Below, in pieces: positions 1-20,740 of a stretch of DNA of 26,251 nucleotides. Position 1 is the stretch's first letter, and each line of letters opens with the position of its first letter. Source of the stretch: a virus. Under the pieces are notes generated by a model. It saw only the letters and a list, made by a program, of their open reading frames with translations. It had not been told where the DNA came from and did no database searches. The stretch is taken from the IMG/VR virus record IMGVR_UViG_3300025162_000163, positions 1 to 26,251 of that record; one strand, given 5' to 3'. The position numbers and the translations under genes are program-made.

Positions 1-318
1 TGATGCCGGAGCCGCTGTAGCCGCTGATGCCCGAGCCGCTGTAGCCGCTGATGCCAGAGCCGCTGTAACCGCTGATGCCCGAGCCGCTGTAACCGCTGAC
101 GCCCGAGCCGCTGTAACCGCTGACGCCCGAGTATCCACTGTATCCGCTGATGCCGGAGCCGCTGTAGCCGCTGATGCCGGAGCCGCTGTAGCCGCTGATG
201 CCGGAGCCGCTGTAGCCGCTGATGCCAGAATACCCGCTATAACCGCTGATGCCCGAGCCGCTGTAACCGCTTATGCCGGAGCCGCTGTAGCCGCTGATGC
301 CGGAGCCGCTGTAGCCTG
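1..318 (-). repeat. 24/27-nt tandem array A in fibre gene
   Basis: Thirteen head-to-tail units inside the fibre gene. Eleven are 24 nt long, encoding GYSGSGIS or near variants, and two are 27 nt (121-147 and 220-246), encoding three full Gly-X-Ser triplets. The units at 148-171, 172-195 and 196-219 are identical. Unit length is a multiple of three, so gain or loss of units keeps the frame. The array may continue past the left edge. Confidence 0.93.
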
Positions 319-2485
319 AGTCACCACTAATTCCGTCTTGACCTGAAAATCCAGAATAGCCTGATTGACCATCTTGACCAGAATAGCCACTAAAACCGCT
401 TGTGCCGATTCCTGAGTAGCCAGAATAACCGCTTGCGCCATCTTGACCAGAAAATCCTGATATTCCAGACCAGCCGCTAATTCCTGAAAAGCCAGACTGT
501 CCATCAATACCGCTATAGCCAGAAGTTCCACTTTCTCCAGAGTACCCAGAGATGCCGCTAAATCCTGAAAGCCCATCTTGACCTGAGTAACCGCTAAATC
601 CAGACAATCCATCTTGTCCAGACCAACCAGAGAATCCTGAATAGCCACTATCACCTTGGATAGATTCGCCTGAATAGCCTGAATAGCCTGAGAAGCCGCT
701 ATAACCACTTATACCGCTTCCGCTGTAACCTGAAAACCCTGAGATACCGCTATTCCCAGAATAGCCGCTAATGCCGCTATAACCTGAAATTCCTGAATCA
801 CCAGAATATCCAGATATTCCTGAATCTCCACTAAACCCTGAAATACCGCTAAACCCTGATTGACCATCAATTCCAGAAAATCCAGACCAACCGCTTATAC
901 CGCTAAAACCTGACCAGCCAGATACACCGCTACCAGAAAACCCTGATATACCGCTATCGCCTGAATACCCTGAAATTCCAGAGAAACCGCTTATGCCGCT
1001 ATCGCCACTATATCCAGAGATACCAGAAAATCCACTAAATCCTGAATAACCAGAATCGCCTTGTGGGCCAACTATAGGGCCAGCATTAAACCAAATAGAG
1101 CCATCCCATACATAAAGATCACCATCGGATAAAACAATGTAGGCATCATTTAAATTGCCTGTAGGGGGAAGATCGGCTGGAGTAGCAACTGATCCAACAA
1201 TATTAATTGATGTACCTTGCTGACCGCTTATGCCTGAAAAACCGCTGTAACCGCTTATGCCGGAGCCGCTGTAACCGCTGATGCCGGAGCCGCTGTAACC
1301 GCTGATGCCGGAGCCGCTGTAACCGCTGATGCCGGAGCCGCTGTAACCGCTGATGCCGGAGCCGCTGTAACCGCTTTTGCCCGAGTATCCACTGTATCCG
1401 CTGATGCCAGAATACCCGCTGTAACCGCTTTTGCCCGAGTATCCACTGTATCCGCTTTTGCCCGAGTATCCACTGTAACCGCTTATGCCGGAGCCGCTAT
1501 AGCCGCTAAATCCGCTATAACCAGATATGCCCGAACCACTATAACCTGATATGCCTGAATAACCTGAAATGCCTGACCAGCCAGAATATCCGCTATAGCC
1601 GATTTGCCCATCCATACCGGAATAGCCGGAATAGCCGGAATATCCTGATACAGCAATTCCTGAATAGCCTGATATGCCGCTATAGCCGCTATAGCCTGAT
1701 ATGCCTTGCCCTGCCAGTTTGGTAAAATTAATAGGCGTGAAATTGATAAAGCCCGTTTCAGGAACGATGGCAACCCACCCTGAATTGGCATTCACGTTGC
1801 CATTGATAATGAAAGTGAAAGCACCGGGCACTTCAGCCCATATGTCCATATCCAGTGAGCGCGCCCATGCGCCCGCTGCCGCTACATAAATTCCGTTGTA
1901 ATTGGCGTTGTTTTGATTTTTAACCAGCACCCGGTCATTGGCTAATGTCGTATAACCATCAATCGTTTGAAGCCCGGACAAGGTGATATTGCCGTCAGCA
2001 GGAGAAGTGGCGCACTGACATTCGGCTTTAGGCGTAAAACCGATGATAAGATTATCGACGTAATTTTTATTGACAAGATCAGTGGGGTTTACAGGTATGG
2101 TATCTACTTGCCCAGTAGTGGTGTGCATATTGTTGAAATATGCAGAGAGCAACCCTGACAATAGCTGCGGCACCTGAATGAAAGCGTTAGCTGTGCCTGC
2201 TGTCATTAAATTGGTTACAAAATCACCACGATTCCATGCCTGAGCCGGAGTTCCTTCCTGCCCGCGCATAACAGTGAGCGCATCGCCCGCTATATGGGTG
2301 CAATATACAATTTCAACAATCAGGCTATTGGTGGATTTGACAAGGGTTAATACTACAGCTTGCCCCGCGCTAGGGGCAGGAAAAAGAGCACCAGTACCAC
2401 TCGCCACATAAATAATTGTATCTGTATTGGCGACAGGAAGCGCTAAAGTAGTCTGCGCCTGATTCTGAAAAAGAAGCAACGACAT
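1..2485 (-). CDS. Collagen-like Gly-X-Ser tail fibre, 3' end beyond window
   Basis: Long reading frame starting at ATG 2485 and open to the left edge (at least 828 codons, no stop), so the C-terminus is missing. Residues 1 to about 105 resemble the N-terminus of the fibre at 2770-4785 and are probably the baseplate anchor. About residues 150-255 look like a common phage fibre beta domain (TIDGYTTLANDRVLVKNQ). From residue 261 the protein is almost entirely Gly-X-Ser or Gly-X-Asp triplets with X = Tyr, Ile, Phe, Trp, Gln, Asp or Lys. This run is interrupted at about residues 430-475 by a module found beside phage collagen repeats (VATPADLPPTGN, DLYVWDG, GPQGD). The start overlaps the upstream stop as TAATG. 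The repeat region contains almost no proline, unlike typical collagen-like fibres. Role inferred: trimeric fibre carrying a distal receptor-binding tip outside the window. The frame is certain; the fold is not. Confidence 0.88.
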   Translation of the reverse strand, partial: MSLLLFQNQAQTTLALPVANTDTIIYVASGTGALFPAPSAGQAVVLTLVKSTNSLIVEIVYCTHIAGDALTVMRGQEGTPAQAWNRGDFVTNLMTAGTANAFIQVPQLLSGLLSAYFNNMHTTTGQVDTIPVNPTDLVNKNYVDNLIIGFTPKAECQCATSPADGNITLSGLQTIDGYTTLANDRVLVKNQNNANYNGIYVAAAGAWARSLDMDIWAEVPGAFTFIINGNVNANSGWVAIVPETGFINFTPINFTKLAGQGISGYSGYSGISGYSGIAVSGYSGYSGYSGMDGQIGYSGYSGWSGISGYSGISGYSGSGISGYSGFSGYSGSGISGYSGYSGKSGYSGYSGKSGYSGYSGISGYSGYSGKSGYSGSGISGYSGSGISGYSGSGISGYSGSGISGYSGSGISGYSGFSGISGQQGTSINIVGSVATPADLPPTGNLNDAYIVLSDGDLYVWDGSIWFNAGPIVGPQGDSGYSGFSGFSGISGYSGDSGISGFSGISGYSGDSGISGFSGSGVSGWSGFSGISGWSGFSGIDGQSGFSGISGFSGDSGISGYSGDSGISGYSGISGYSGNSGISGFSGYSGSGISGYSGFSGYSGYSGESIQGDSGYSGFSGWSGQDGLSGFSGYSGQDGLSGFSGISGYSGESGTSGYSGIDGQSGFSGISGWSGISGFSGQDGASGYSGYSGIGTSGFSGYSGQDGQSGYSGFSGQDGISGDSGYSGSGISGYSGSGISGYSGSGISGYSGYSGISGYSGSGISGYSGSGISGYSGSGISGYSGYSGVSGYSGSGVSGYSGSGISGYSGSGISGYSGSGISGYSGSGI
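1255..1506 (-). repeat. 24/27-nt tandem array B in fibre gene
   Basis: Ten units of the same family as the array at 1-318. Four consecutive identical 24-nt units occupy 1279-1374, and four 27-nt units occupy 1375-1482, encoding GYSGYSGKS or GYSGYSGIS. The sequence between the two arrays encodes the same kind of triplets with diversified codons and lower GC, so the arrays look like recent amplifications within an older repeat gene. Confidence 0.93.
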
Positions 2486-2751
2486 TACAGAATGGCGTAA
2501 GTATCGTTAATGGCCCCAGTGAACTTCAGAGCTTTCACAGGGAACGTCAGCACAAAGTAAATTTGCCCAGTCATTGAACCAGTAGGAGTTACAGCCGGAT
2601 AGAAGTTCGTGCCATCCAGTGAAAACTGTATGGTCGGGCTAGTGGTGGATGTGAACAACACCGTAGCGGGGGCTAATACAGTGGGGACTGTAACTACCGC
2701 AGTAGCAGCAGCAAGAGTTCCTGTGATGGGGCTACCGTAATTATATGTCAT
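2485..2751 (-). CDS. Small beta-rich tail-fibre-associated protein
   Basis: Encodes 88 residues, rich in Thr, Val and Ala, with no signal peptide or membrane segment. ATG 2751 is preceded by a good AAGGAA ribosome-binding site, and the stop overlaps the next start as TAATG, so it is probably translationally coupled to the long fibre. The pattern of an APATVLF strand, then FSLDGTNFYP, then a C-terminal VKALKFTGAINDTYAI strand recalls small beta-sandwich proteins often encoded among phage structural genes. I infer a minor virion component or fibre accessory factor from its position between two fibre genes. No catalytic motif is visible and the exact function is unknown. Confidence 0.75.
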   Translation of the reverse strand: MTYNYGSPITGTLAAATAVVTVPTVLAPATVLFTSTTSPTIQFSLDGTNFYPAVTPTGSMTGQIYFVLTFPVKALKFTGAINDTYAIL

Positions 2752-2769: not shown

Positions 2770-4785
2770 TTAATAGCAAATTGAGGCGTTAGTAAGCGTA
2801 CAGTTGACAGACGTTACAACCCATGTAGCCCCATTAGGTATAAAACCTAGAACCCGCAATGTGCAGCCACTTAAGCTACTTGCGAAATAATCTATGAGTA
2901 TGCCATTACAAGTTAGGCTTACTGTGCCATTACTGCCATTGGTATACAGAAAAGAAACTTGAATACCGTAATTATAATTATTAGTACCAGAAGTAGGCGC
3001 CCCTGTATGCCATGATCCACCGCTAACGGAATTAAAAGGTACATACGTAACTATTTCCAGCTCTACAAAAGCTGTTGTAGCCATTGTGGTATCATTGGTT
3101 CCAAAGGGTTTTGTAACCCCTGTAGTCGTGCCGGATATAGAACCGGAGCCAACTAAATTAGTGGCGTTGGTCGCCGCGCCTACAGTCATTGAAGCTTGAC
3201 TCAGCCAAGAAGGTGCGCCAGAACCATTTGACTGAAGAACCTGCCCGGCAGTGCCCAATGCGCTAAATGCAAAAGCGATTCCTGTTCCATAAGCAACGCC
3301 GCCTTGGGTGGGGGCAGAAGATGAAGCTGTTCCACCATTTGCATATCCCAATACACCAGAAGGAAAACCTGTTGACCCTAAATTGACATTGGTGCATAAA
3401 GATAGAACGCCTGATACTGGCGTTCCTAAAATGGGTGCTATGAGTGTTGCGCCATTATTCAGAACCACGGAACCTGTGCCCGTGGTAGCTAATGAAGTGC
3501 CCCACGGCCCGCCTGTTCCGTTGGATACCGCCACGCCCGCACCGGGATATGCGGTTATACCTAAATTGGCAATGGTGATAGTGCCCGCCCCATTGGTGAC
3601 GCTGATACCCGTACCGGCAGTTATGGTAGTTACGGTGTAATTAGTTCCATTGCCAACAGGTATAGCACCATTAACAGGGATAGTAACTGCACCTGTACCA
3701 CCGTTGGCGGGAACTAATGTGCCAGCAAGGGTGATGGGGCCGGTGGTGGCGATATTAGGCGTTAAGCCCGTAGTACCTGCTGAAAACGATGTAACGGGAG
3801 AACTGGCTACGGGGATAACCGGATTCAGGAACAGCCATTGACCACCGCCTGATGTGCTATATACCATTTGGCAAATATAGCCCGCACCTGAAATATCCCC
3901 CGCATTGAGCGCTGCATTAGCCCATTTCTTGATTGTTTTAGCTCCTGTCGCTGTTGAGCCAAGTGTGAGATTTAATGTAGGCGTAGTCGTGGCATTGGCA
4001 TATGCCGCTTTGAAGGATACTTGCAAACCGTCTGTCAATGCCACCAGCGATGAAGGGATGGTAACTGCAAGGGTATCCGCGCCGCCTGTAGCCACTGCAT
4101 AGGTATAGTATTGCTGTTGTAGCTGACTGGCTGAAAAAGTCGGCGGATAAATGGTGGCGGGATTATTCATCACAAATGAACCGGACGAACCAAAGGCCGT
4201 TGCAAAAACCAGTTCCATCGGATAGCCCGCAATGGGTATATCCCCGGCTATCAACGCCAGATTATTACCCTTAATGATGGGATAGGATAGCGGCGCATTT
4301 GAACCTAGCGTTATGGTCAGTGTAGCTGCACCTGTGTTCACATATGCAGAATTAAGGATAAGCGTGAATCCATTAGGCAATTGCGTGAGCGTGGAGGGTA
4401 CTGTAGTAGTTAAAGCATTGGCGGTGCCTGCCGCTGTCGAATAAGTCCATAGCCCATCTTGAAGCTGATCAGGCTGAACGAATAATCCTTGCGTACCCGC
4501 TGTGGGGAAACAGCTTGCTGCGGTGCCTGCGATCCATGTAGTAGGTGAAGTGCCTTCTGCGCCGCGTACAGCGATAGTCAGTGTATCCCCAGAACGAGCC
4601 GTAACCCATACAACTTCATTCGCGCCGGAAGTAGGATTTGTAAGTGTCAGAATAAAATACTGCCCAAAAGCGGGGCTTGGGAATAGGGAGCCTGTACCGG
4701 CTGCAAGAGTACAAGTAGTGGGGGTGGTTACTGTGATCGGATTTAATAGTGTTGTCGCTGCATTATTGGCAAATATTAAAATCAT
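2770..4785 (-). CDS. Tail fibre protein
   Basis: Encodes 671 residues dominated by Thr, Gly, Ala, Asn and Ser. Residues 1-105 share an anchor-like domain with the next fibre (AGTGSLFPSP, GDTLT, RGAEGT, TAGT). Residues 112-208 and 227-323 form an imperfect repeat, each with a PSxL...L.DG/NG start and an IAGDIPIAGY or NAGDISGAGY segment. The rest carries motifs common in phage fibre shafts: LVPANGGTG, LGTAGQVLQSNGSGAPSW and TNDTTMATTAFV. The last ~95 residues look like a small globular beta domain and are the likeliest receptor-binding tip. No peptidase S74-type autocleavage segment is visible. I count only nine Lys+Arg in the whole protein. The gene lies immediately after the baseplate I-like gene, the usual place for a fibre. 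Confidence 0.87.
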   Translation of the reverse strand: MILIFANNAATTLLNPITVTTPTTCTLAAGTGSLFPSPAFGQYFILTLTNPTSGANEVVWVTARSGDTLTIAVRGAEGTSPTTWIAGTAASCFPTAGTQGLFVQPDQLQDGLWTYSTAAGTANALTTTVPSTLTQLPNGFTLILNSAYVNTGAATLTITLGSNAPLSYPIIKGNNLALIAGDIPIAGYPMELVFATAFGSSGSFVMNNPATIYPPTFSASQLQQQYYTYAVATGGADTLAVTIPSSLVALTDGLQVSFKAAYANATTTPTLNLTLGSTATGAKTIKKWANAALNAGDISGAGYICQMVYSTSGGGQWLFLNPVIPVASSPVTSFSAGTTGLTPNIATTGPITLAGTLVPANGGTGAVTIPVNGAIPVGNGTNYTVTTITAGTGISVTNGAGTITIANLGITAYPGAGVAVSNGTGGPWGTSLATTGTGSVVLNNGATLIAPILGTPVSGVLSLCTNVNLGSTGFPSGVLGYANGGTASSSAPTQGGVAYGTGIAFAFSALGTAGQVLQSNGSGAPSWLSQASMTVGAATNATNLVGSGSISGTTTGVTKPFGTNDTTMATTAFVELEIVTYVPFNSVSGGSWHTGAPTSGTNNYNYGIQVSFLYTNGSNGTVSLTCNGILIDYFASSLSGCTLRVLGFIPNGATWVVTSVNCTLTNASICY
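3817..4452 (-). repeat. Imperfect ~97-residue duplication within tail fibre
   Basis: Two protein-level copies, at about residues 112-208 (4452-4162) and 227-323 (4107-3817). Both run through a valine/threonine strand, a PSxL turn, a hydrophobic strand with AYxN, a TLTITLGS or TLNLTLGS strand, and a GDIxxAGY turn. The DNA has diverged, so this is an old shaft-domain duplication. Boundaries are approximate. Confidence 0.65.
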
Positions 4786-4793
4786 AGTGGCAC

Positions 4794-5648
4794 CTAATAA
4801 GTTACAGCCCAGTTATACTGAAATGGCAACTGCACAACTTGCGAGCTTACAAAAGATTGCAAGGTGGCTGCCAGTGAGGTATCCATAGCCCCCGCTAATA
4901 TCTGAATTGTTGCATTATACGAAGAAGGCGTCGGAAAAAGTATGCTTACTTGGTAAGCATTAACCCCATCTATATCGGTCTGATATGGGTCAGTTCCATT
5001 TATTCCAGACAAAAAGCGCACTGTTCTTCTTTTCAGCCAATTGATGTTAAATTGGTATCCGTCGCCTTTATAAAAATTCCAAGTTATTACCCGTTTATAT
5101 ATGTCGTCAGAGGCTAGTTCCACCACATTTGTTATAAACCCTTCCGTTGTCACTACGCCGGGATTAGCCGCTAAAGCATAAGTAAAGGAATGAGGCCCGG
5201 TAGAAGTGAATACAAAATTGCCATTATACCCGCTCGGTTCCACACCTTGAATATTCCCTGAAGATAAACCCGTTAAATTATAGATTGAAGCAACGGTTAC
5301 AGTTACAACGCCTGAACTCCAAGTCATTGAAACTATTGGTATTTGTGTACTTGTAACAATTCCTTCGTTATAGGGAATCGTATCATAGATAGAAGTGTCA
5401 TACACGCCTTTGCTAAGACTTGATGTCCCCGTAGTAATGTAAGGGCGCGGGATTCCATAAAGACTATTGCCCACCCAATCCAGTAACACGCCGGTAATTG
5501 CCGATGAAGTATAAATTGGCAACTTGAGGCTATTAACCGCGTCTAAATAGCCTTGAGAGGTACTATTATAAGCCGTGAAAAACGCTTGTAAGTCGGGGTC
5601 TGAGCCATACTGTTGATAAAGATAGCTTGGCAGCGTAGTGGTTATCAT
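4794..5648 (-). CDS. Baseplate/tail protein I-like, with inserted beta module
   Basis: Encodes 284 residues, and the ATG overlaps the stop of the J-like gene as ATGA. The opening (LPSYLYQQYGSDPDLQAFF), followed by LLDWVGNSLYGIPRP, resembles baseplate proteins that follow gpJ in contractile tails (P2 I or DUF2612-like) and that connect the wedge to tail fibres. About residues 103-173 form a beta module also found in the J-like protein and in the sheath. After it come a helical segment (DDIYKRVITWNFYKGDGYQF) and a C-terminal part ending in LPFQYNWAVTY, so the core appears split by the module. Position directly between J and the fibres supports the assignment. The exact family is inferred. Confidence 0.7.
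   Translation of the reverse strand: MITTTLPSYLYQQYGSDPDLQAFFTAYNSTSQGYLDAVNSLKLPIYTSSAITGVLLDWVGNSLYGIPRPYITTGTSSLSKGVYDTSIYDTIPYNEGIVTSTQIPIVSMTWSSGVVTVTVASIYNLTGLSSGNIQGVEPSGYNGNFVFTSTGPHSFTYALAANPGVVTTEGFITNVVELASDDIYKRVITWNFYKGDGYQFNINWLKRRTVRFLSGINGTDPYQTDIDGVNAYQVSILFPTPSSYNATIQILAGAMDTSLAATLQSFVSSQVVQLPFQYNWAVTY
5130..5342 (-). other. Beta-module copy in I-like protein
   Basis: Encodes about residues 103-173 of the I-like protein. The hallmarks are an IVSMTWSSGVVTVTVAS start, a GVEPSGYNGNF turn, a GPHSFTYALAANPGVVT segment and a closing hydrophobic strand. It aligns by eye with three other copies, two in the J-like gene and one in the sheath gene. It lacks the usual PHG motif after the first strands (SIYNLTG instead), so it is the most diverged copy. 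Confidence 0.75.
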
Positions 5649-7528
5649 GCCTGTGTAACCGTTATATTAGATGAATTGGTTACAAAATAGGATTGTGGAT
5701 CGCCATAATATAACCCCGTAGTTACGGCAGGAGCCACGGTCACACCATTAATGACTACCGTGAAATTGATTTCAGATATGAACTGAATAGGCACTAATGT
5801 GGCTATGGATTGCTGGAATATGGCCTGCATTTCATACTGGTTAATCGGCTGCCCAACCGTTATCCCGTTAATATAGTTGGATATTGCAACACTGGCGGCT
5901 GTAGCTACTGAAATGGGCGATACATAATTGGTCGCAATCGTATTCCACAGAATTGTTATATTTACTAATTGCGAAAGCGGATTGATAAACGACACATTAT
6001 AAGTGTTGGGGTAGTTATTAATGGATACCGTAACATTCCGCAGATTAGGCGTCACTATGCCATTACCCGTATAAGCCGCAAGGCTGGTGCTATCAAAAGG
6101 CGTATAGCCCAATACTGTAACCGCGCCGGGATTGGTTGCCAATGGATAACTGAATGAATTGGCGGATATGTAAGTGAAAGTCACGCCTGACACATTGTAT
6201 CCCGATGGCGTTACACCATAGATAGACCCTGTAACTGTTCCACTTGTCAGCCCCATAGGTGTAGCCGTAACCACTGTTACGACACTTGCCGCCCAAGTGA
6301 GCGATACAATTTCCACATTAAGGCTAAAACTATTAATGCTGTTCACTACAGCCACATAAGGAACTTCTGTGGATACCACGCCTTTAATGGTTACAGCGCC
6401 GGGATTAGAAGCCAAAGGATAAGTGAAAGTGCTGGTGCCCGTTGAAGTAATGGTAAAGGTGCCATTATATCCATTAGGTGTAACACCTGCGATTAAACCT
6501 AAAATTTTTGCGCCTGATGCAACGCCATGCGGCGTAGCAGTAGTTACGGTAACAACGCTTGACGCCCAAGTCATCGTACTTATGACAATGCCCGCTGTGC
6601 TGTTAATGCTGGTCAACCCCGTAGCCCCGCTAATATAAATCACTTGCCCTGTTGTAAAGCCATGTGTCAAATTGGTGGTTACAACAGCGGGATAGGCATT
6701 GGTGAGTGTGGAAGCTGAAAGAGTGGAGCCTATGACATTGGATATGTCAAACAAGCTAGTAAATATGGCATTAGCGATCTGATAAGGATCGCCGCCTCCG
6801 CCGCACATGACTTGCCAGTTAGTGCCGGATTGGGAGATAGCCACAAGATTATCCTGCACTCCCGACACATTCTGAAGCTGTGTTTTCAAGAATGACGGCA
6901 TTCCTTGAGCTACGGCTTGGCCTGCTTGGATGACTTGAGCCTGATAGCTTTGTATTGTCTGTGCTGTGGCCCCTGCTGTGCCCGGTGTGAGGTTAGAACA
7001 GGAGAGGTTAATGCCGCCCGGTACAGAGGTAATAATCGTCGTTACGGTGCCTTCTGGTACTGCCCAAGAACCGGCTTTTGTGGCGAGGCAGAATAATGCC
7101 GAACTTTGACCGCCCGAGCCTATAATACCGCCGTCCTGCACAACGTATTGATAGATACCGTCCGATACTACAAAACCGATGGGGATTACAAACCCCGGTG
7201 TTCCCGTAGGATTAAGCAGAGTGATGGTGGAAAAGGTTACATAAACCGAAGTATTGGCTCCGATACCTTGGGTGACCCCATAAACAGCCCCTAATTGATA
7301 AAGGATAAATGCGTTAGCCGTATAGGGGCTAATGGAATTAATCAAGTCCACATAGGCTTGATCTATAACCACTACTGCGCCTGCCGCGGTTGAGGCCATA
7401 TCTTCAACCAAGGAGCCGGGGAGATTAGCGGTTAAACCCGGTGACAAGGCTGTTGCCGCCGCAACTTCGGCATTTAGTAAATCTTGAGGGCTGCTAGGAA
7501 CCGCGCCAGCACTGGTTAATGTCGCCAT
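5645..7528 (-). CDS. Baseplate J-like protein with nested beta modules
   Basis: Encodes 627 residues from ATG 7528, with an AAGGA ribosome-binding site five bases upstream. Residues 1-255 carry baseplate J features: SPQDLLNAEVAAATALSPGL, PGSLVEDMASTAAGAVVVID, a TPGFVIPIGFVVSDG beta arm, and PGTAGATAQTIQSYQAQV, similar to the P2 J / T4 gp6 wedge region. The C-terminal part (about 495-627) with VNITILWNT, VSPISVATAASVAISNYIN and QPINQYEMQAIF also fits J proteins. Between them, about 276-494 is an FCCH-like beta domain (PAVVTTNLTHGFTTGQVIYISG ... FSLNV ... DSTSLAAYTGNGIVT) interrupted twice by a different beta module. I count only four Lys and one Arg. Known role of the family: wedge assembly around the hub and triggering of sheath contraction. 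Confidence 0.86.
   Translation of the reverse strand: MATLTSAGAVPSSPQDLLNAEVAAATALSPGLTANLPGSLVEDMASTAAGAVVVIDQAYVDLINSISPYTANAFILYQLGAVYGVTQGIGANTSVYVTFSTITLLNPTGTPGFVIPIGFVVSDGIYQYVVQDGGIIGSGGQSSALFCLATKAGSWAVPEGTVTTIITSVPGGINLSCSNLTPGTAGATAQTIQSYQAQVIQAGQAVAQGMPSFLKTQLQNVSGVQDNLVAISQSGTNWQVMCGGGGDPYQIANAIFTSLFDISNVIGSTLSASTLTNAYPAVVTTNLTHGFTTGQVIYISGATGLTSINSTAGIVISTMTWASSVVTVTTATPHGVASGAKILGLIAGVTPNGYNGTFTITSTGTSTFTYPLASNPGAVTIKGVVSTEVPYVAVVNSINSFSLNVEIVSLTWAASVVTVVTATPMGLTSGTVTGSIYGVTPSGYNVSGVTFTYISANSFSYPLATNPGAVTVLGYTPFDSTSLAAYTGNGIVTPNLRNVTVSINNYPNTYNVSFINPLSQLVNITILWNTIATNYVSPISVATAASVAISNYINGITVGQPINQYEMQAIFQQSIATLVPIQFISEINFTVVINGVTVAPAVTTGLYYGDPQSYFVTNSSNITVTQA
6101..6310 (-). other. 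Beta-module copy 2 in J-like protein
   Basis: Encodes about residues 407-476. It starts IVSLTWAASVVTVVTATPMG, has the GVTPSGYN turn and ends YPLATNPGAVTVLG. It sits between the FSLNV strand and the DSTSLAAYTGNG tail of the interrupted FCCH-like domain. It has PMG where other copies have PHG. Confidence 0.8.
6368..6589 (-). other. Beta-module copy 1 in J-like protein
   Basis: Encodes about residues 314-387. It starts with STMTWASSVVTVTTATPHG and contains GVTPNGYNGTFTITSTGT and YPLASNPGAVTIKG. By eye about 40 of 69 residues match the sheath copy, with recognisable nucleotide similarity (both contain ccatgcggcg and a closely similar 22-base stretch over the YNGTFTIT codons). It lies between the SINST segment and the VPYVAVVNSINSFSLNV strand of the FCCH-like domain. 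Confidence 0.82.
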
Positions 7529-10174: not shown

Positions 10175-10782
10175 TGCCCACTCCAACTAGCGCCTAAAGT
10201 AGTGAATGTTGGAAGCCCTTGAGTAATACTATTCATAACGCCGCCTAAAACCGATGAAAACTGACTTTCGGAAATCAAAGGTTGTACAAAATCCCATTGG
10301 TACATGAGTTGTACTTGCTTATCGCTAGGGCTGCTTACGTCCCTGAGATTAGTCAATAAACAGTTTGTATATGTATATGCCGGGGTAATCACCGTGAAAG
10401 TACCACCGGATATAATATGGATATTTATTTGTGTTTGTAACGCGGTCATAATAGATCGTTTCAAGATATATCCACCTTCAGTCTGCGCGGGGCACACCAT
10501 TAACAAACTGATCTTCAAAGGCTGTTGAATAACTGCATTAGCCGCTACTTGAAGGCTGGCAAATGGATATTCTGCTACTTGAAAATCCGCCAATGTACTT
10601 CCGGGTAACGGTTTGTAGTGTGCAAAAAATTCTCCGTTTTCAATCCCCGGGATATCAAACATTTCCGTCAACACCGTGATAGGCAATAATTGACCGGGTA
10701 TAGATTGCGCTAATCCACCTTGTAAAATAATAGGCGATATTTCATAGGCTAATTGAAAAGTAGAAAACCCTAACGAACTCAT
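10171..10782 (-). CDS. Baseplate/tail structural protein after tape measure
   Basis: Encodes 203 residues, coupled to the tape measure gene by TAATG and to the plug gene by ATGA. It is mainly beta structure (AYEISPIILQGGLAQ, QLLPITVLTEMF), with a helical middle (EGGYILKRSIMTALQTQI) and a C-terminal YQWDFVQPLIS strand. No enzyme motif or membrane segment. In contractile-tail phages the gene after the tape measure often encodes a tube-to-hub adaptor or a LysM-type gp53/Mup46-like protein; I see no clear LysM motif. I therefore call it a baseplate component by position only. Confidence 0.68.
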   Translation of the reverse strand: MSSLGFSTFQLAYEISPIILQGGLAQSIPGQLLPITVLTEMFDIPGIENGEFFAHYKPLPGSTLADFQVAEYPFASLQVAANAVIQQPLKISLLMVCPAQTEGGYILKRSIMTALQTQINIHIISGGTFTVITPAYTYTNCLLTNLRDVSSPSDKQVQLMYQWDFVQPLISESQFSSVLGGVMNSITQGLPTFTTLGASWSGQ

Positions 10783-12794
10783 TATGCGTATCCTATAACG
10801 GGATTCATCGCCTTAATTTGCGTAATAATGTCTGCGCCAGTTGCTACATTTACTTTGAAATCCAATGTGGTGCTTACATTAACATTCGGCGTTTGCATGA
10901 AAGAAGGCGTATTTGATTTATCAAGTACATTTTTAGTTTGGTTAGCCCCATTAGCATTGCCGCTATATCGAGATAATTCTTGCATATCCATTTTCGGGGA
11001 TTCATAAGCGTTCATAAAATCAAAATCATCGGGGGGCTGCAAATTGAACATATCATATTCTTTCAAATTTTCTGGCATAACAAAGCGTGAAAGCGGATGA
11101 TTTGGGTATTTAAACTTACCATTATTCATGTTCTTTAAGAAATTACTGGTTTCATTAGGTATTTTAGAAACATCATGCACACGTCCTGTTTTATCCGTAT
11201 AGTTTGAAGCGCCGCTAAGGAATAGTTCTAAATCGTGCGGATTCCAGTTCCATGCCGCTAATGCTTTTTCTACATCGCCATTAAAACGTTTTAAGTTTTC
11301 TTTTAGTAATTTTACAGCACCTTCTGTTGCGCTTTTCATGTTAAACGGATTAGTAACACCTAATGCTTTTGAGGTGTCCGGCATAAGCTGAAACGGGCCT
11401 TGAGCGCCACTCTTAGATAACAGATGTTTGCCGTGCCCTGATTCCACATTATATAGCTGATTTAATATACCTTCAGGGAGGTCATTCGCAATTTCCGTGC
11501 GTTTAAAATATGCTTGCAATTCTGGCTCTTTTATAACTTCGCCCGAATCATAGTGCGGGCCAGTTTTTTCTAGCTCATGTATAGCCGCTATTTCTTCAGC
11601 TTTTTTCTGGCTTTTTGTTTTATATCCGGTAATGCCTGCTATCCATTTAGCTGCATCACCTACAGCCTCAGCTATATCAGCCACAGCGTTAAGAAAATCG
11701 TCCAGTGTTTTCTTAAAGTCATCACCACTTAAATAAATAGCGAAGGATTTAATGCCTTCGCCAAAAGAGGTTAGCCATTCTTTTAAGTGGGGGTTTTTAA
11801 GGAAGGCTTTTATAGCCTCTCCTATAGCTATAGCCAAATCACCTAATGGCCCTGTTAAATCATTTAGTCCTGTTATAAGAGTCAGTTCAATACTTTTACC
11901 TGCAACTTCCAGATTTTGCTTAAAGGTTTGCCATGCCCGATCTAATTCATCTTGTGTCTTAAATTCTTCATTGCCTCTATGAAGATTATCAATGAACTTC
12001 TTAAATTCTTCCTCGGTCAGATTTCCAAGCCTTCGTATATCCTCAAATTGTGCAAGCTGAGTAGCGCCTGTAGCTTCAATGATGGCTTGCTGACCGTGGT
12101 ATTTTTGATATATGCCCCTTAGCTGAGTAGCGACTTCCGGCAAAAGTTCAGCCGCATTTTTGCCTTTACTTTCCTTGACACCTATCCGCGCAAGAATAGG
12201 CTGCTTTCTAATATCACTTTGAATATCGGCTAAATTACCTAGAAGGCTATTAACATCAAAATAGCGTTCACCATAAATTTGAGCAGAACGGTATTGTCCG
12301 GTAGTGATACCAAGTCCTTGCGCGGCGCGGCGATCAGAACTTACCGCTGCGGCTAAAGCCCCCAAGCCAAACCCGCTAGCGATTGCGCCAAACGTTAGCC
12401 ATTTGGCTGCGGATACGGCGGTATCCGCCATATCTTTAGCTATTCGTGTGGTGATTTTTGCTACATTGACAAGCCCTACATGCCTATCACCAAGCACTTT
12501 ATTAAAATCTTTTCCGCGCTTGGATTCGGCTTTGTTGTTTTTATCTTCTTTGGATGCAGCTTTTTCAGCTTCTTTATTAAAATCTTTTTGGCGCTTGGAT
12601 TTGGCTTTGTGGTCTTTATCTTCTTGGGATGCAGCTTTGGCTTCAGCTTTTTCAGCTTCTTTTATTTCCTTAGCTATGTTCTTCCATTGCCCCGGCATAG
12701 CTTCAAGGATGCTTTGGAGTTTAAGCATCTGCTCATTGAAAGCTTGGAACTTCTCGTCTAATAAATCTATTTCGATAATGGATTTTGTAGCCAT
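10782..12794 (-). CDS. Tape measure protein with lytic transglycosylase domain
   Basis: Encodes 670 residues; ATG 12794 follows an AAAGGT site. Residues 1-100 are a charged helical region with a 25-residue tandem repeat. About residues 130-150 are a hydrophobic segment (AAKWLTFGAIASGFGLGALA), typical of tape measures. Helical stretches follow, with another hydrophobic segment at about 310-355. About residues 430-525 form an SLT/goose-lysozyme-like domain: LPEGILNQLYNVESG with probable catalytic Glu451, SKSGAQGPFQLMP at 461-472, and AAWNWNP at 513-519, where many relatives have A-Y-N-A-G-P. By the usual ~1.5 angstrom per residue, 670 residues predict a tail near 100 nm. Role: sets tail length and opens peptidoglycan at DNA entry. 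It follows the frameshifted chaperones, as expected. Confidence 0.9.
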   Translation of the reverse strand: MATKSIIEIDLLDEKFQAFNEQMLKLQSILEAMPGQWKNIAKEIKEAEKAEAKAASQEDKDHKAKSKRQKDFNKEAEKAASKEDKNNKAESKRGKDFNKVLGDRHVGLVNVAKITTRIAKDMADTAVSAAKWLTFGAIASGFGLGALAAAVSSDRRAAQGLGITTGQYRSAQIYGERYFDVNSLLGNLADIQSDIRKQPILARIGVKESKGKNAAELLPEVATQLRGIYQKYHGQQAIIEATGATQLAQFEDIRRLGNLTEEEFKKFIDNLHRGNEEFKTQDELDRAWQTFKQNLEVAGKSIELTLITGLNDLTGPLGDLAIAIGEAIKAFLKNPHLKEWLTSFGEGIKSFAIYLSGDDFKKTLDDFLNAVADIAEAVGDAAKWIAGITGYKTKSQKKAEEIAAIHELEKTGPHYDSGEVIKEPELQAYFKRTEIANDLPEGILNQLYNVESGHGKHLLSKSGAQGPFQLMPDTSKALGVTNPFNMKSATEGAVKLLKENLKRFNGDVEKALAAWNWNPHDLELFLSGASNYTDKTGRVHDVSKIPNETSNFLKNMNNGKFKYPNHPLSRFVMPENLKEYDMFNLQPPDDFDFMNAYESPKMDMQELSRYSGNANGANQTKNVLDKSNTPSFMQTPNVNVSTTLDFKVNVATGADIITQIKAMNPVIGYA
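12501..12650 (-). repeat. 75-nt tandem repeat in tape measure gene
   Basis: Two adjacent imperfect 75-nt copies (12501-12575 and 12576-12650) encode 25-residue charged helical repeats, each with a KAASxEDKxxKAxSKRxKDFNK core, at about residues 49-98. The unit is in frame, so changes in copy number would alter tape measure length without disrupting it. Confidence 0.85.
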
Positions 12795-13984: not shown

Positions 13985-15301
13985 TTAAACGGGAATGTTG
14001 GACGCGGTTAAGTAGATAGTAATGGAGTTAAAGCCTCTCAACGGTACGAAAGTAACGCTTAATCCATTGTAGATACCCGCTGCATAATCGCTCGGATGCT
14101 GTGCTATATAACTCACAAACGAAATAGCGTTTACAGTGCAAGGTGATAAAATAAGCCCAAAAGATATGCCATTATTCATCAACGCTTGTGCTACTTGCTG
14201 CAAGGAATTAATGCCCGCTTGGTTGTAATACAACGGATTAGTAGGTGTATTGCTGCCGTTGATGATCGCAGCGGATAAAGCAATAGCGGCATTGATGTTC
14301 ACCCAATCCGTTGAATACCAGTAATTGAAGGGGTGTAAATCCATGCACTCACCATTCTCAATCAATGATGTGCTGATTTGCCCTTGCGCTCCAGTACCAA
14401 TCCAGTTCACGCCTATAGCCGCCAGTGTGGTTTGCTGTGCATTGGTCAGAACAGGGGGGATAACCCCATATACAAAAGTGTATTCAAGCGGTGAAGCCAG
14501 ATTGTTAGCCGCAGGATTATAGTTCAGAGTTTGCGCCATAACCGCCGCTGCTGACCACTGAGTTACAGGCGCAGATAAAGCTTCATAAACAATAACCGCT
14601 GCTTTGTTGCCTTCATATGGCCCATATGAATCGGCGTTCATCGGCGTTGTAATATCTTGAACGCTTATGAAGAAATACACTTTCGATGTTGGCGAAGAAT
14701 TAGCCAATACCAGCGCGGGCATCGTAGAATCCGCCGACACTTCTGTGGTAACACAGTATGAATAGAACGGAATTGTGGGGTTAGCCATATATGCTGCTAA
14801 TGCAGTTACCCCCTGCGCCGCAGTACCAATGCCTAATTCCAGCACATAAACTGCGTTACCTGTTCCTTGTGCAAAATAAGTAGTCGCCATAGCGACCAAA
14901 TCTTGTTCTGCTTCTGTAACGTATGTTCCTTGAACGGTAGCTGTTCCGGGGCTGGAAACCAAAGCATAAGTGAAGGTATTAGTACCAGTGGAAGTAATGG
15001 TGAATGTACCGTTGTATGCCGTTGGCGTTACGCCAGAAATAATTCCTAAAAGAGTATCCGTAAGGGGGATACCATGCGGCGAAGCCAGAGTTACAGTAAC
15101 TACGCCTGTATTCCACACCAGAGAAGTTGTAGCGATAGGACTGGAAAGAATAGCAGTCAAATCGCTCATTTGGGTTAAGAGGGCGGTACTCCCCGCGGTT
15201 AGCGCGGTGCCCCCCTGAGTTACAAACGCGCCAGTTCTTTGCAGCGTGGAAGGCGCACTTGCTACCTGTTGGGAAACTACTACATTGACAATATTGGGCA
15301 T
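13985..15301 (-). CDS. Contractile tail sheath protein (DUF3383-like)
   Basis: Encodes 438 residues from ATG 15301. The N-terminus (MPNIVNVVVSQQVASAPSTL) and a C-terminal region (SFGLILSPCTVNAISFVSYI ... PSDYAAGIYNGLSVTFVPLRGFNSITIYLT) fit DUF3383-type sheath proteins, in which terminal strands exchange with neighbouring subunits. A middle domain has VYVLELGIG, SYCVTTEVSAD and a VNWIGTG segment. About residues 58-128 are an extra beta module inserted after the N-terminal strands, probably on the outer surface. I count only two Lys and two Arg in the whole protein. The next gene encodes the tube. Role: sheath that contracts and drives the tube through the cell envelope. Confidence 0.86.
   Translation of the reverse strand: MPNIVNVVVSQQVASAPSTLQRTGAFVTQGGTALTAGSTALLTQMSDLTAILSSPIATTSLVWNTGVVTVTLASPHGIPLTDTLLGIISGVTPTAYNGTFTITSTGTNTFTYALVSSPGTATVQGTYVTEAEQDLVAMATTYFAQGTGNAVYVLELGIGTAAQGVTALAAYMANPTIPFYSYCVTTEVSADSTMPALVLANSSPTSKVYFFISVQDITTPMNADSYGPYEGNKAAVIVYEALSAPVTQWSAAAVMAQTLNYNPAANNLASPLEYTFVYGVIPPVLTNAQQTTLAAIGVNWIGTGAQGQISTSLIENGECMDLHPFNYWYSTDWVNINAAIALSAAIINGSNTPTNPLYYNQAGINSLQQVAQALMNNGISFGLILSPCTVNAISFVSYIAQHPSDYAAGIYNGLSVTFVPLRGFNSITIYLTASNIPV
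14918..15130 (-). other. Beta-module copy in tail sheath
   Basis: Encodes about residues 58-128 of the sheath protein (SLVWNTGVVTVTLASPHG ... GVTPTAYNGTFTITSTGT ... YALVSSPGTATVQG). It matches the first J-like copy at about 40 of 69 positions by eye and shares short stretches of nucleotide identity with it, although sheath and J proteins are otherwise unrelated. Confidence 0.82.
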
Positions 15302-19963: not shown

Positions 19964-20740
19964 TTAGCGTTGATTGTTGGAAAGGTGAAATTCTTTGACG
20001 CGCAATGCCGGTACTTTGAAATCATCCAGCCATGCCGACATAGAGCCACGGAATTTAGTGATAGTGCGCCCGGCCCGATCTTTTTCGTGGACTTCCACCA
20101 GTTGATCAGCGGCAAACATTTGCGGGGCTTTTGCCATAGCATAGGCATCTGCAAAAATTTGCTTTTCCGCCAAGGACAGCAAGGCTTCATCTTTAATGGA
20201 ACCAAGATTGATGCCTTTATAGCTATCGGAATAGCCTTGCAAGCCGCGCAACAGGCGTTTGCGATAAGACATTAAGGTTTCACCTTGCAGGGGACGGGAA
20301 GCGGATTTACCGAAGGAAGCTAAAACGCTATCAGCCTTGGCTTGGCAATCTGCATACATCGCAGCTTCGTCATCAGCTTTTTTAGCTGCCATTTCTTCTT
20401 CTTCTTCATCTTTTTTGACGTCATCATCTTTTTTGGCGTCATCATCATCATCAGGCTTAATTTCGCCAGCAGGCAGTTCTTCTTTACCACCGGCAGCGTC
20501 TTTACGCTTTTTGTCATCATCATCATCGTCGTCATCAGGCTTAATTTCGCCAGCAGGCAGTTCTTCTTTACCACCGGCAGCGTCTTTACGCTTTTTGTCG
20601 GCAGCAGTGACGAGAGGAGGTGCGGGGAGATTTTTTTCCATGCTATCTACGCGGGTGGCAAGAGTGCCAACAGCAGACAGGATAGCGTCGAGTTTTTCAC
20701 CGTGGGCATCTGCCGCGGGCGTATTGGTGTTGTCAGTCAT
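19964..20740 (-). CDS. Nested capsid scaffold from internal in-frame start
   Basis: Probable separate product made from Met376 of the protease gene. Codon ATG 20740 is preceded by AAGAGG at 20754-20749 and an eight-base spacer, a good ribosome-binding site inside the gene. The product would be 258 residues: an N-terminal segment MTDNTNTPAADAHGE, a helix (KLDAILSAVGTLATRVDSMEKNL), two copies of a Lys-rich/poly-Asp unit, and a helical C-terminal domain with YRKRLLRGLQGYSDSY and FADAYAMAKAPQMF. The design copies lambda C/Nu3, in which the scaffold is nested in the protease gene. The acidic helical composition fits a scaffold. Expression is inferred. Confidence 0.65.
   Translation of the reverse strand: MTDNTNTPAADAHGEKLDAILSAVGTLATRVDSMEKNLPAPPLVTAADKKRKDAAGGKEELPAGEIKPDDDDDDDDKKRKDAAGGKEELPAGEIKPDDDDDAKKDDDVKKDEEEEEMAAKKADDEAAMYADCQAKADSVLASFGKSASRPLQGETLMSYRKRLLRGLQGYSDSYKGINLGSIKDEALLSLAEKQIFADAYAMAKAPQMFAADQLVEVHEKDRAGRTITKFRGSMSAWLDDFKVPALRVKEFHLSNNQR

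Follow-up and report, generated by a model that had tools for sequence, protein, structure and literature searches.

A candidate FCCH-type beta-barrel module inserted repeatedly into the sheath and baseplate proteins of a contractile-tailed phage

The first catalytic-cysteine half-domain (FCCH) of ubiquitin E1 enzymes, represented in Pfam by E1_FCCH (PF16190), is itself an insertion within another domain. Domain shuffling is known generally in phage proteins (PMC10684548), and extra beta domains have already been recognized in contractile sheaths, where they are reported to sit at a distance from the tube, with a suggested part in adhesion or stability (PMC9230969). Here we describe a module of ~72 residues, present as four clear copies in the tail genes of one virus record, whose members probably belong to a promiscuous family of small beta-barrels with the fold of the E1 FCCH domain; we consider this the best explanation of the observations as a whole. 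Our literature search found no paper linking phage add-on domains to the E1 FCCH fold and no description of an FCCH-fold family as a self-nested phage add-on with graded relatives, and Pfam already recognizes some of the phage copies.

The stretch of DNA analysed (the window) is an entire IMG/VR virus record of 26,251 bases, a myovirus structural block with its genes on the minus strand. Judged by the sheath, its nearest annotated relatives are the Chronis/Certevirus-like myoviruses Klebsiella phage Chronis, Yersinia phage YenM_29.18 and Pantoea phage PdC23, followed by Actinobacillus phage pPE4 and Shewanella phage QDWS; searches of IMG/VR that used the sheath, J and module supplied further relatives, and locus L005 (Rac-SA53) was excluded from every analysis. 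A ~99% identical phage (L144, L145) lies on a contig of 26,074 bases from a MAG assigned to Mucilaginibacter by binning, which is weak evidence for the host. The record has several other repetitive or variable features. An open frame of 835 aa (2-2506, minus strand), which begins like a tail fibre, reaches the end of the window and contains long collagen-like G-x-y runs (GISGYSG...) built from 24/27-base tandem repeats. The tail-fibre-like protein at 2770-4785 is nearly identical over its first ~480 residues to that of L059 (12744-14768) and ends in an unrelated C terminus, which we read as a swapped fibre tip in phages that are otherwise ~99% identical. There are also two tandem duplications, one of 84 bases (20439-20606, 94%) in a NUDIX-type head gene and one of 75 bases (12497-12646, 84%) in the gene at 10782-12794.

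Queried with the sheath copy, the record returned exactly four places, namely the query itself at 14912-15127, J at 6365-6577 (E 4.6e-23) and 6107-6304 (4.1e-10), and I at 5136-5330 (1.9e-16). The full modules, all on the minus strand, are copy S (14912..15127, sheath aa 59-130), copies J1 (6365..6580, aa 317-388) and J2 (6092..6307, aa 408-479) of the J-like protein, and copy I (5127..5333, aa 106-174) of the I-like protein. Protein identity is highest for S/J1 (57%, 41/72), followed by J1/J2 (54%), J1/I (51%), S/I and J2/I (47% each) and S/J2 (42%), with conserved HG, GVTPxxYNG, TFTY and NPG residues and Smith-Waterman scores 13-26 SD above shuffles. A profile built from the sheath modules of other phages only, with the window clade left out, recovers J1, I and J2 at 6e-31, 8e-20 and 1e-16. 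These results bear out the preliminary description, which had proposed a single ~70-residue module occurring once in I, twice in J and once in the sheath, and had counted by eye about 40 of 69 matching residues between a J copy and the sheath copy. It had also held the host proteins to be otherwise unrelated, and they are so by sequence, since BLAST among I, J and sheath with the modules masked gave no match at E<=1. Lax profile scans of every open frame of the record added nothing except piece 1 of the domain resident in J, described below. The module repeat was also picked up by an independent DNA repeat search (families D11, D16 and D18). DNA identity between whole modules is only 52-63%, little above the expectation for recoded proteins.

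The protein carrying S (13985..15301, minus strand, 438 aa) is a contractile tail sheath by both profile (phrog_205 tail sheath, E 4.9e-30) and fold, its AF2 model (pLDDT 87) aligning to the Sf14 sheath 9c3b with VIA Z 27.5 and to the Pam3 sheath with 24.4. The protein that contains J1, J2 and the resident domain (5645..7528, minus strand, 627 aa) is likewise identified as a J-like baseplate wedge protein by profile (phrog_6 baseplate wedge, 1.1e-18; PF04865 in 18/23 J proteins) and by fold, Foldseek placing its model with the E217/Pa193 baseplate J proteins at ~1e-10 (E217 J 1.5e-10). The same Foldseek listing includes weak rows to cell-adhesion proteins. Copy I resides in an I-like tail protein (4794..5648, minus strand, 284 aa; phrog_8212, E 8.7e-56), whose orthologue in PdC23 is annotated DUF2612. 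J seemed longer in close relatives (2408 bp), but this was an artefact of tblastn fusing the I module to J, which is 627 aa there as well.

The earlier tally of two modules in J holds for J1 and J2 but is incomplete, as J contains a third, divergent member of the family, a "resident" domain that the two inserts cut into three pieces. The first piece (6602..6709, minus strand, aa 274-309) is matched by Pfam E1_FCCH at 2.9e-4 on aa 281-316, and alignment to undivided relatives places the second between J1 and J2 (6314..6364, minus strand, aa 389-405) and the third, with the junction to the J core, at 6035..6100 (minus strand, aa 477-498). Together they belong to a variable insert region of J (6041..6739, minus strand, ~aa 264-496) that spans 233 aa in the window. 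Across relatives the stretch flanked by the conserved '..DIS' and 'RN..V' measures 9, 79-82, 154-157 or 233 residues, corresponding to zero, one, two or three domains (a 15-residue stretch in pPE4 was scored as empty). The ~80-residue state is the resident domain alone, found undivided in the Chronis, YenM and PdC23 orthologues; J2 occupies one of its loops and J1 another. J2 is common to the window and L018, L019, L051, L072 and L151, and J1 is confined to the window clade, its site being empty in L018, L019, L051 and L151.

Structure prediction, which the preliminary description had suggested for the copies, supports FCCH barrels for J1 and J2 and a discrete beta domain for S, with the caveat that the J model as a whole is of low quality (pLDDT 59, most module stretches ~50 to 90). 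Modelled J1 superposes on UBA6 FCCH 213-293 with VIA Z 10.4 and an rmsd of 2.0 A over 77 residues, and modelled J2 on UBA1 FCCH 215-294 with VIA Z 9.2, so both are predicted to adopt the FCCH beta-barrel in a part of the J model that is of moderate confidence. In the sheath model, the chain of which is a contractile sheath throughout, the module is a separate six-strand domain (strands 56-64, 67-72, 83-89, 98-104, 109-113 and 126-129) at a pLDDT of ~95. The structural matches listed for the whole chain are taken up by sheath proteins, and it is the module's sequence homology to J1 which suggests that it too would have the FCCH fold.

Profile comparisons point to the same family. Of 34 diverse modules, 11 have an E1_FCCH match at E<=0.1 (best 6e-11), and among relatives the resident domain of J scores above the curated cut-off of 29.5 bits in Chronis (52.8), YenM (50.0), PdC23 (56.1), L018 (34.1) and L031 (31.7). 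Matches above this cut-off occur in 8 of the 12 phage records searched. The window's own copies all fall below it: J scores 21.3 bits, from the resident piece, and the window's sheath and I proteins have no E1_FCCH match. A profile of the resident domain finds sheath modules at 2.5e-9, and profiles of the two recognise each other with an hhalign probability of 97.7. No Ig-like family was among the Pfam matches of the 34 modules, 4 of which weakly match the End_beta_barrel family of phage endosialidase (PF12195; best 0.0014, below cut-off). PDB sequences searched with module profiles and an NCBIfam search gave chance matches only, and phage records searched with one module gave nothing at E<=1e-3 and only sheath-site relatives at E<=10.

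In a phylogenetic tree of J with the insert removed, the three-domain proteins trace to a single origin in the clade of the window (100/100). A group lacking any domain (L045, L052 and L054) is nested among one- and two-domain phages, indicating clean loss of the domain. The relatives form a graded series running from resident domain plus J2 (L018, L019, L051 and L072), through the further addition of I (L151, which has the sheath, resident, J2 and I copies and lacks J1), to the full set (window, L011 and L060). The gain and clean loss in this tree, the nesting in loops of a related domain and the size steps of J are what would be expected if copies came and went, to no advantage, in loops able to accommodate a compact barrel, a near-neutral accretion that we regard as rather improbable, given that the copies remain open with a conserved fold at distances where synonymous sites are saturated and that the family has several independent hosts across phyla.

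Outside J, copy I has a clean empty junction in 24 of 28 aligned I proteins, and L151 carries a module at the same I loop as the window clade. The sheath-site copy is present in 53 of 54 sheath ORFs, a set partly picked by sheath similarity. It is weak in pPE4, and among the phages examined only Shewanella phage QDWS has none at that site and none is a close empty-site relative. The QDWS sheath (L006, 13473-14795) has another inserted repeat-like stretch (GYTSAPTVTFS...) slightly downstream of the module site, and some phages have a second sheath module site near residue 260 or two tandem copies. Chronis, YenM_29.18 and PdC23 resemble the window in gene order, in the sheath-site module and in the resident domain of J, but have neither J1, J2 nor the I copy. 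Their further module lies instead in a head protein upstream of the capsid gene, at a site that is empty in the window. The preliminary description had proposed a search for relatives with empty sites and had accepted that modules present in all relatives would tell against insertion; I, J1 and J2 have clean empty sites and are absent from many relatives, whereas the sheath copy, an old one close to fixation, has no close empty counterpart and comes near to being universal.

This near fixation bears on function. The sheath module changes about as fast as the sheath core (mean identity 54.5% vs 56.7%), and a near-constant module with a core-like rate is at least as compatible with a fixed role in the structure as with an optional adhesin. 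The modules might thus stabilise the virion, sheath copies packing on neighbouring subunits and the I and J copies filling or bracing the baseplate without host binding, much as has been suggested for domain II of phage 812 (PMC9230969). We consider such a role unlikely, although somewhat less so than neutral accretion: the I, J1 and J2 copies are missing in most relatives and the resident domain of J has vanished entirely in some, so that these domains are dispensable, and the family also occurs in amidase, PilY1-like and tyrosinase-like proteins.

How the copies arose can be addressed in part from module trees, which rest on few columns. J1 and I are each recovered as a single supported clade, and the best tree also unites the J2 copies. 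The I copies are the sister group of J2 (96/94), and J1 lies within the diversity of sheath-site modules, which indicates that the module has been copied from one gene to another among related phages. A topology with the window's own sheath as donor of J1 is not rejected (p-AU 0.36), and such a donation is not established either. The preliminary description had proposed that the copies spread recently within this single genome by recombination. Copying among genes of the phage group stands, but its recency does not. The copies are alike, and DNA identity between S and J1 is slightly above the recoded expectation (0.625 vs 0.579). Against this, synonymous sites between copies are near saturation (pS 0.63-0.72), and with DNA identity so close to the recoded expectation the copying is not recent; L060, whose J is 91% identical to that of the window, has the same four copies at the same sites, and J2 is common to several divergent phages. 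Recent spread within this genome is already largely refuted, and we give it almost no credence. Inspection of the insert borders revealed no target-site duplication and no shared border, and the inserts, ~72-80 codons containing the barrel only, do not have the makeup of an autonomous mobile element (intein, homing endonuclease or transposon). The copying was presumably rare and illegitimate.

The family extends well beyond these proteins. The module-profile search gave two to four matches in each of 10 out of 10 records, and phage hosts include the sheath, J, I, the head protein phrog_6268, an amidase, a head-tail adaptor, and tail-fibre (phrog_529) and virion PHROGs; in L139 (1994-4471) a phage amidase (phrog_5107) is interrupted by four modules in a row. 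On bacterial MAG contigs the family occurs in proteins with PilY1 and tyrosinase domains. One of these combines a tyrosinase domain with two modules (L146, 1375-3138), another a PilY1 domain with four (L149, 3988-8637). The presence of the family in tail fibres, an amidase and a pilus tip protein of PilY1 type, together with the weak endosialidase-like matches, lends some weight to the earlier idea that the modules bind glycans or mucus, by which they might set or widen adsorption, an idea that we hold tentatively. The module has no recognisable binding site, its conserved residues appearing to determine the fold, and the sheath copy diversifies no faster than the core. The E1 FCCH domain is not known to be a lectin, which also counts against glycan binding.

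The module was probably inserted in frame into loops of virion proteins, presumably by rare illegitimate copying, and was inherited thereafter. The homology of the modules, their number and positions, the empty sites, the gains and losses and the nesting are demonstrated here, as is, by modelling, the fold of J1 and J2. An old copy would have entered the sheath; the baseplate protein J would have received the resident domain, and J2 would then have been placed inside it. A J2-related copy would have reached the neighbouring I gene and, in the window's clade, J1 would have been added within the resident domain. The module tolerates insertion into loops, even those of its own kind, and can be lost cleanly. 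The modules are probably exposed outward as accessory add-ons, for which weak multivalent binding to cell-surface material is the leading, if still tentative, candidate role, ahead of stabilisation and, last, near-neutral accretion.

Repeated insertion into contractile-tail parts, even into a copy of its own kind, leaves a stepwise record of accretion onto viral structural proteins. A single family is caught here at successive stages, with zero, one, two and three domains in one gene, self-nested and also in the next gene, and this J/I series provides a natural series for studying the origin and purpose of such insertions. The FCCH fold ties these phage add-ons to a domain of the ubiquitin E1 enzyme, the human one included. 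It is conceivable, if doubtful, that the eukaryotic E1 FCCH domain goes back to a promiscuous barrel of prokaryotes or phages that lives by in-frame insertion into loops of other domains, of which this phage group would keep a stepwise record that includes self-insertion.

Compared with E1_FCCH, the modelled J1 and J2 superpose at ~2 A on UBA6/UBA1 and relatives have a resident domain in J that scores above the Pfam cut-off, whereas the hosts are a sheath, a baseplate J and an I protein rather than a ubiquitin-activating enzyme, the ubiquitin pathway plays no part, and the window's copies lie below that cut-off. The likeness to the endosialidase End_beta_barrel (PF12195) is a weak one of profile, and no endosialidase is linked to the module here. 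The module resembles the Ig-like domains of tailed phages and the extra beta domains of sheaths (PMC9230969) as an optional beta domain found in more than one protein of a virion, the same domain occurring in unrelated virion proteins and being present or absent among relatives. It differs from the Ig-like domains in its modelled FCCH barrel and in being nested also within its own kind, and none of the Pfam matches of the 34 modules is to an Ig-like family. The module is probably a promiscuous FCCH-fold add-on that would work like the Ig-like domains of phages and seems to belong to another family.
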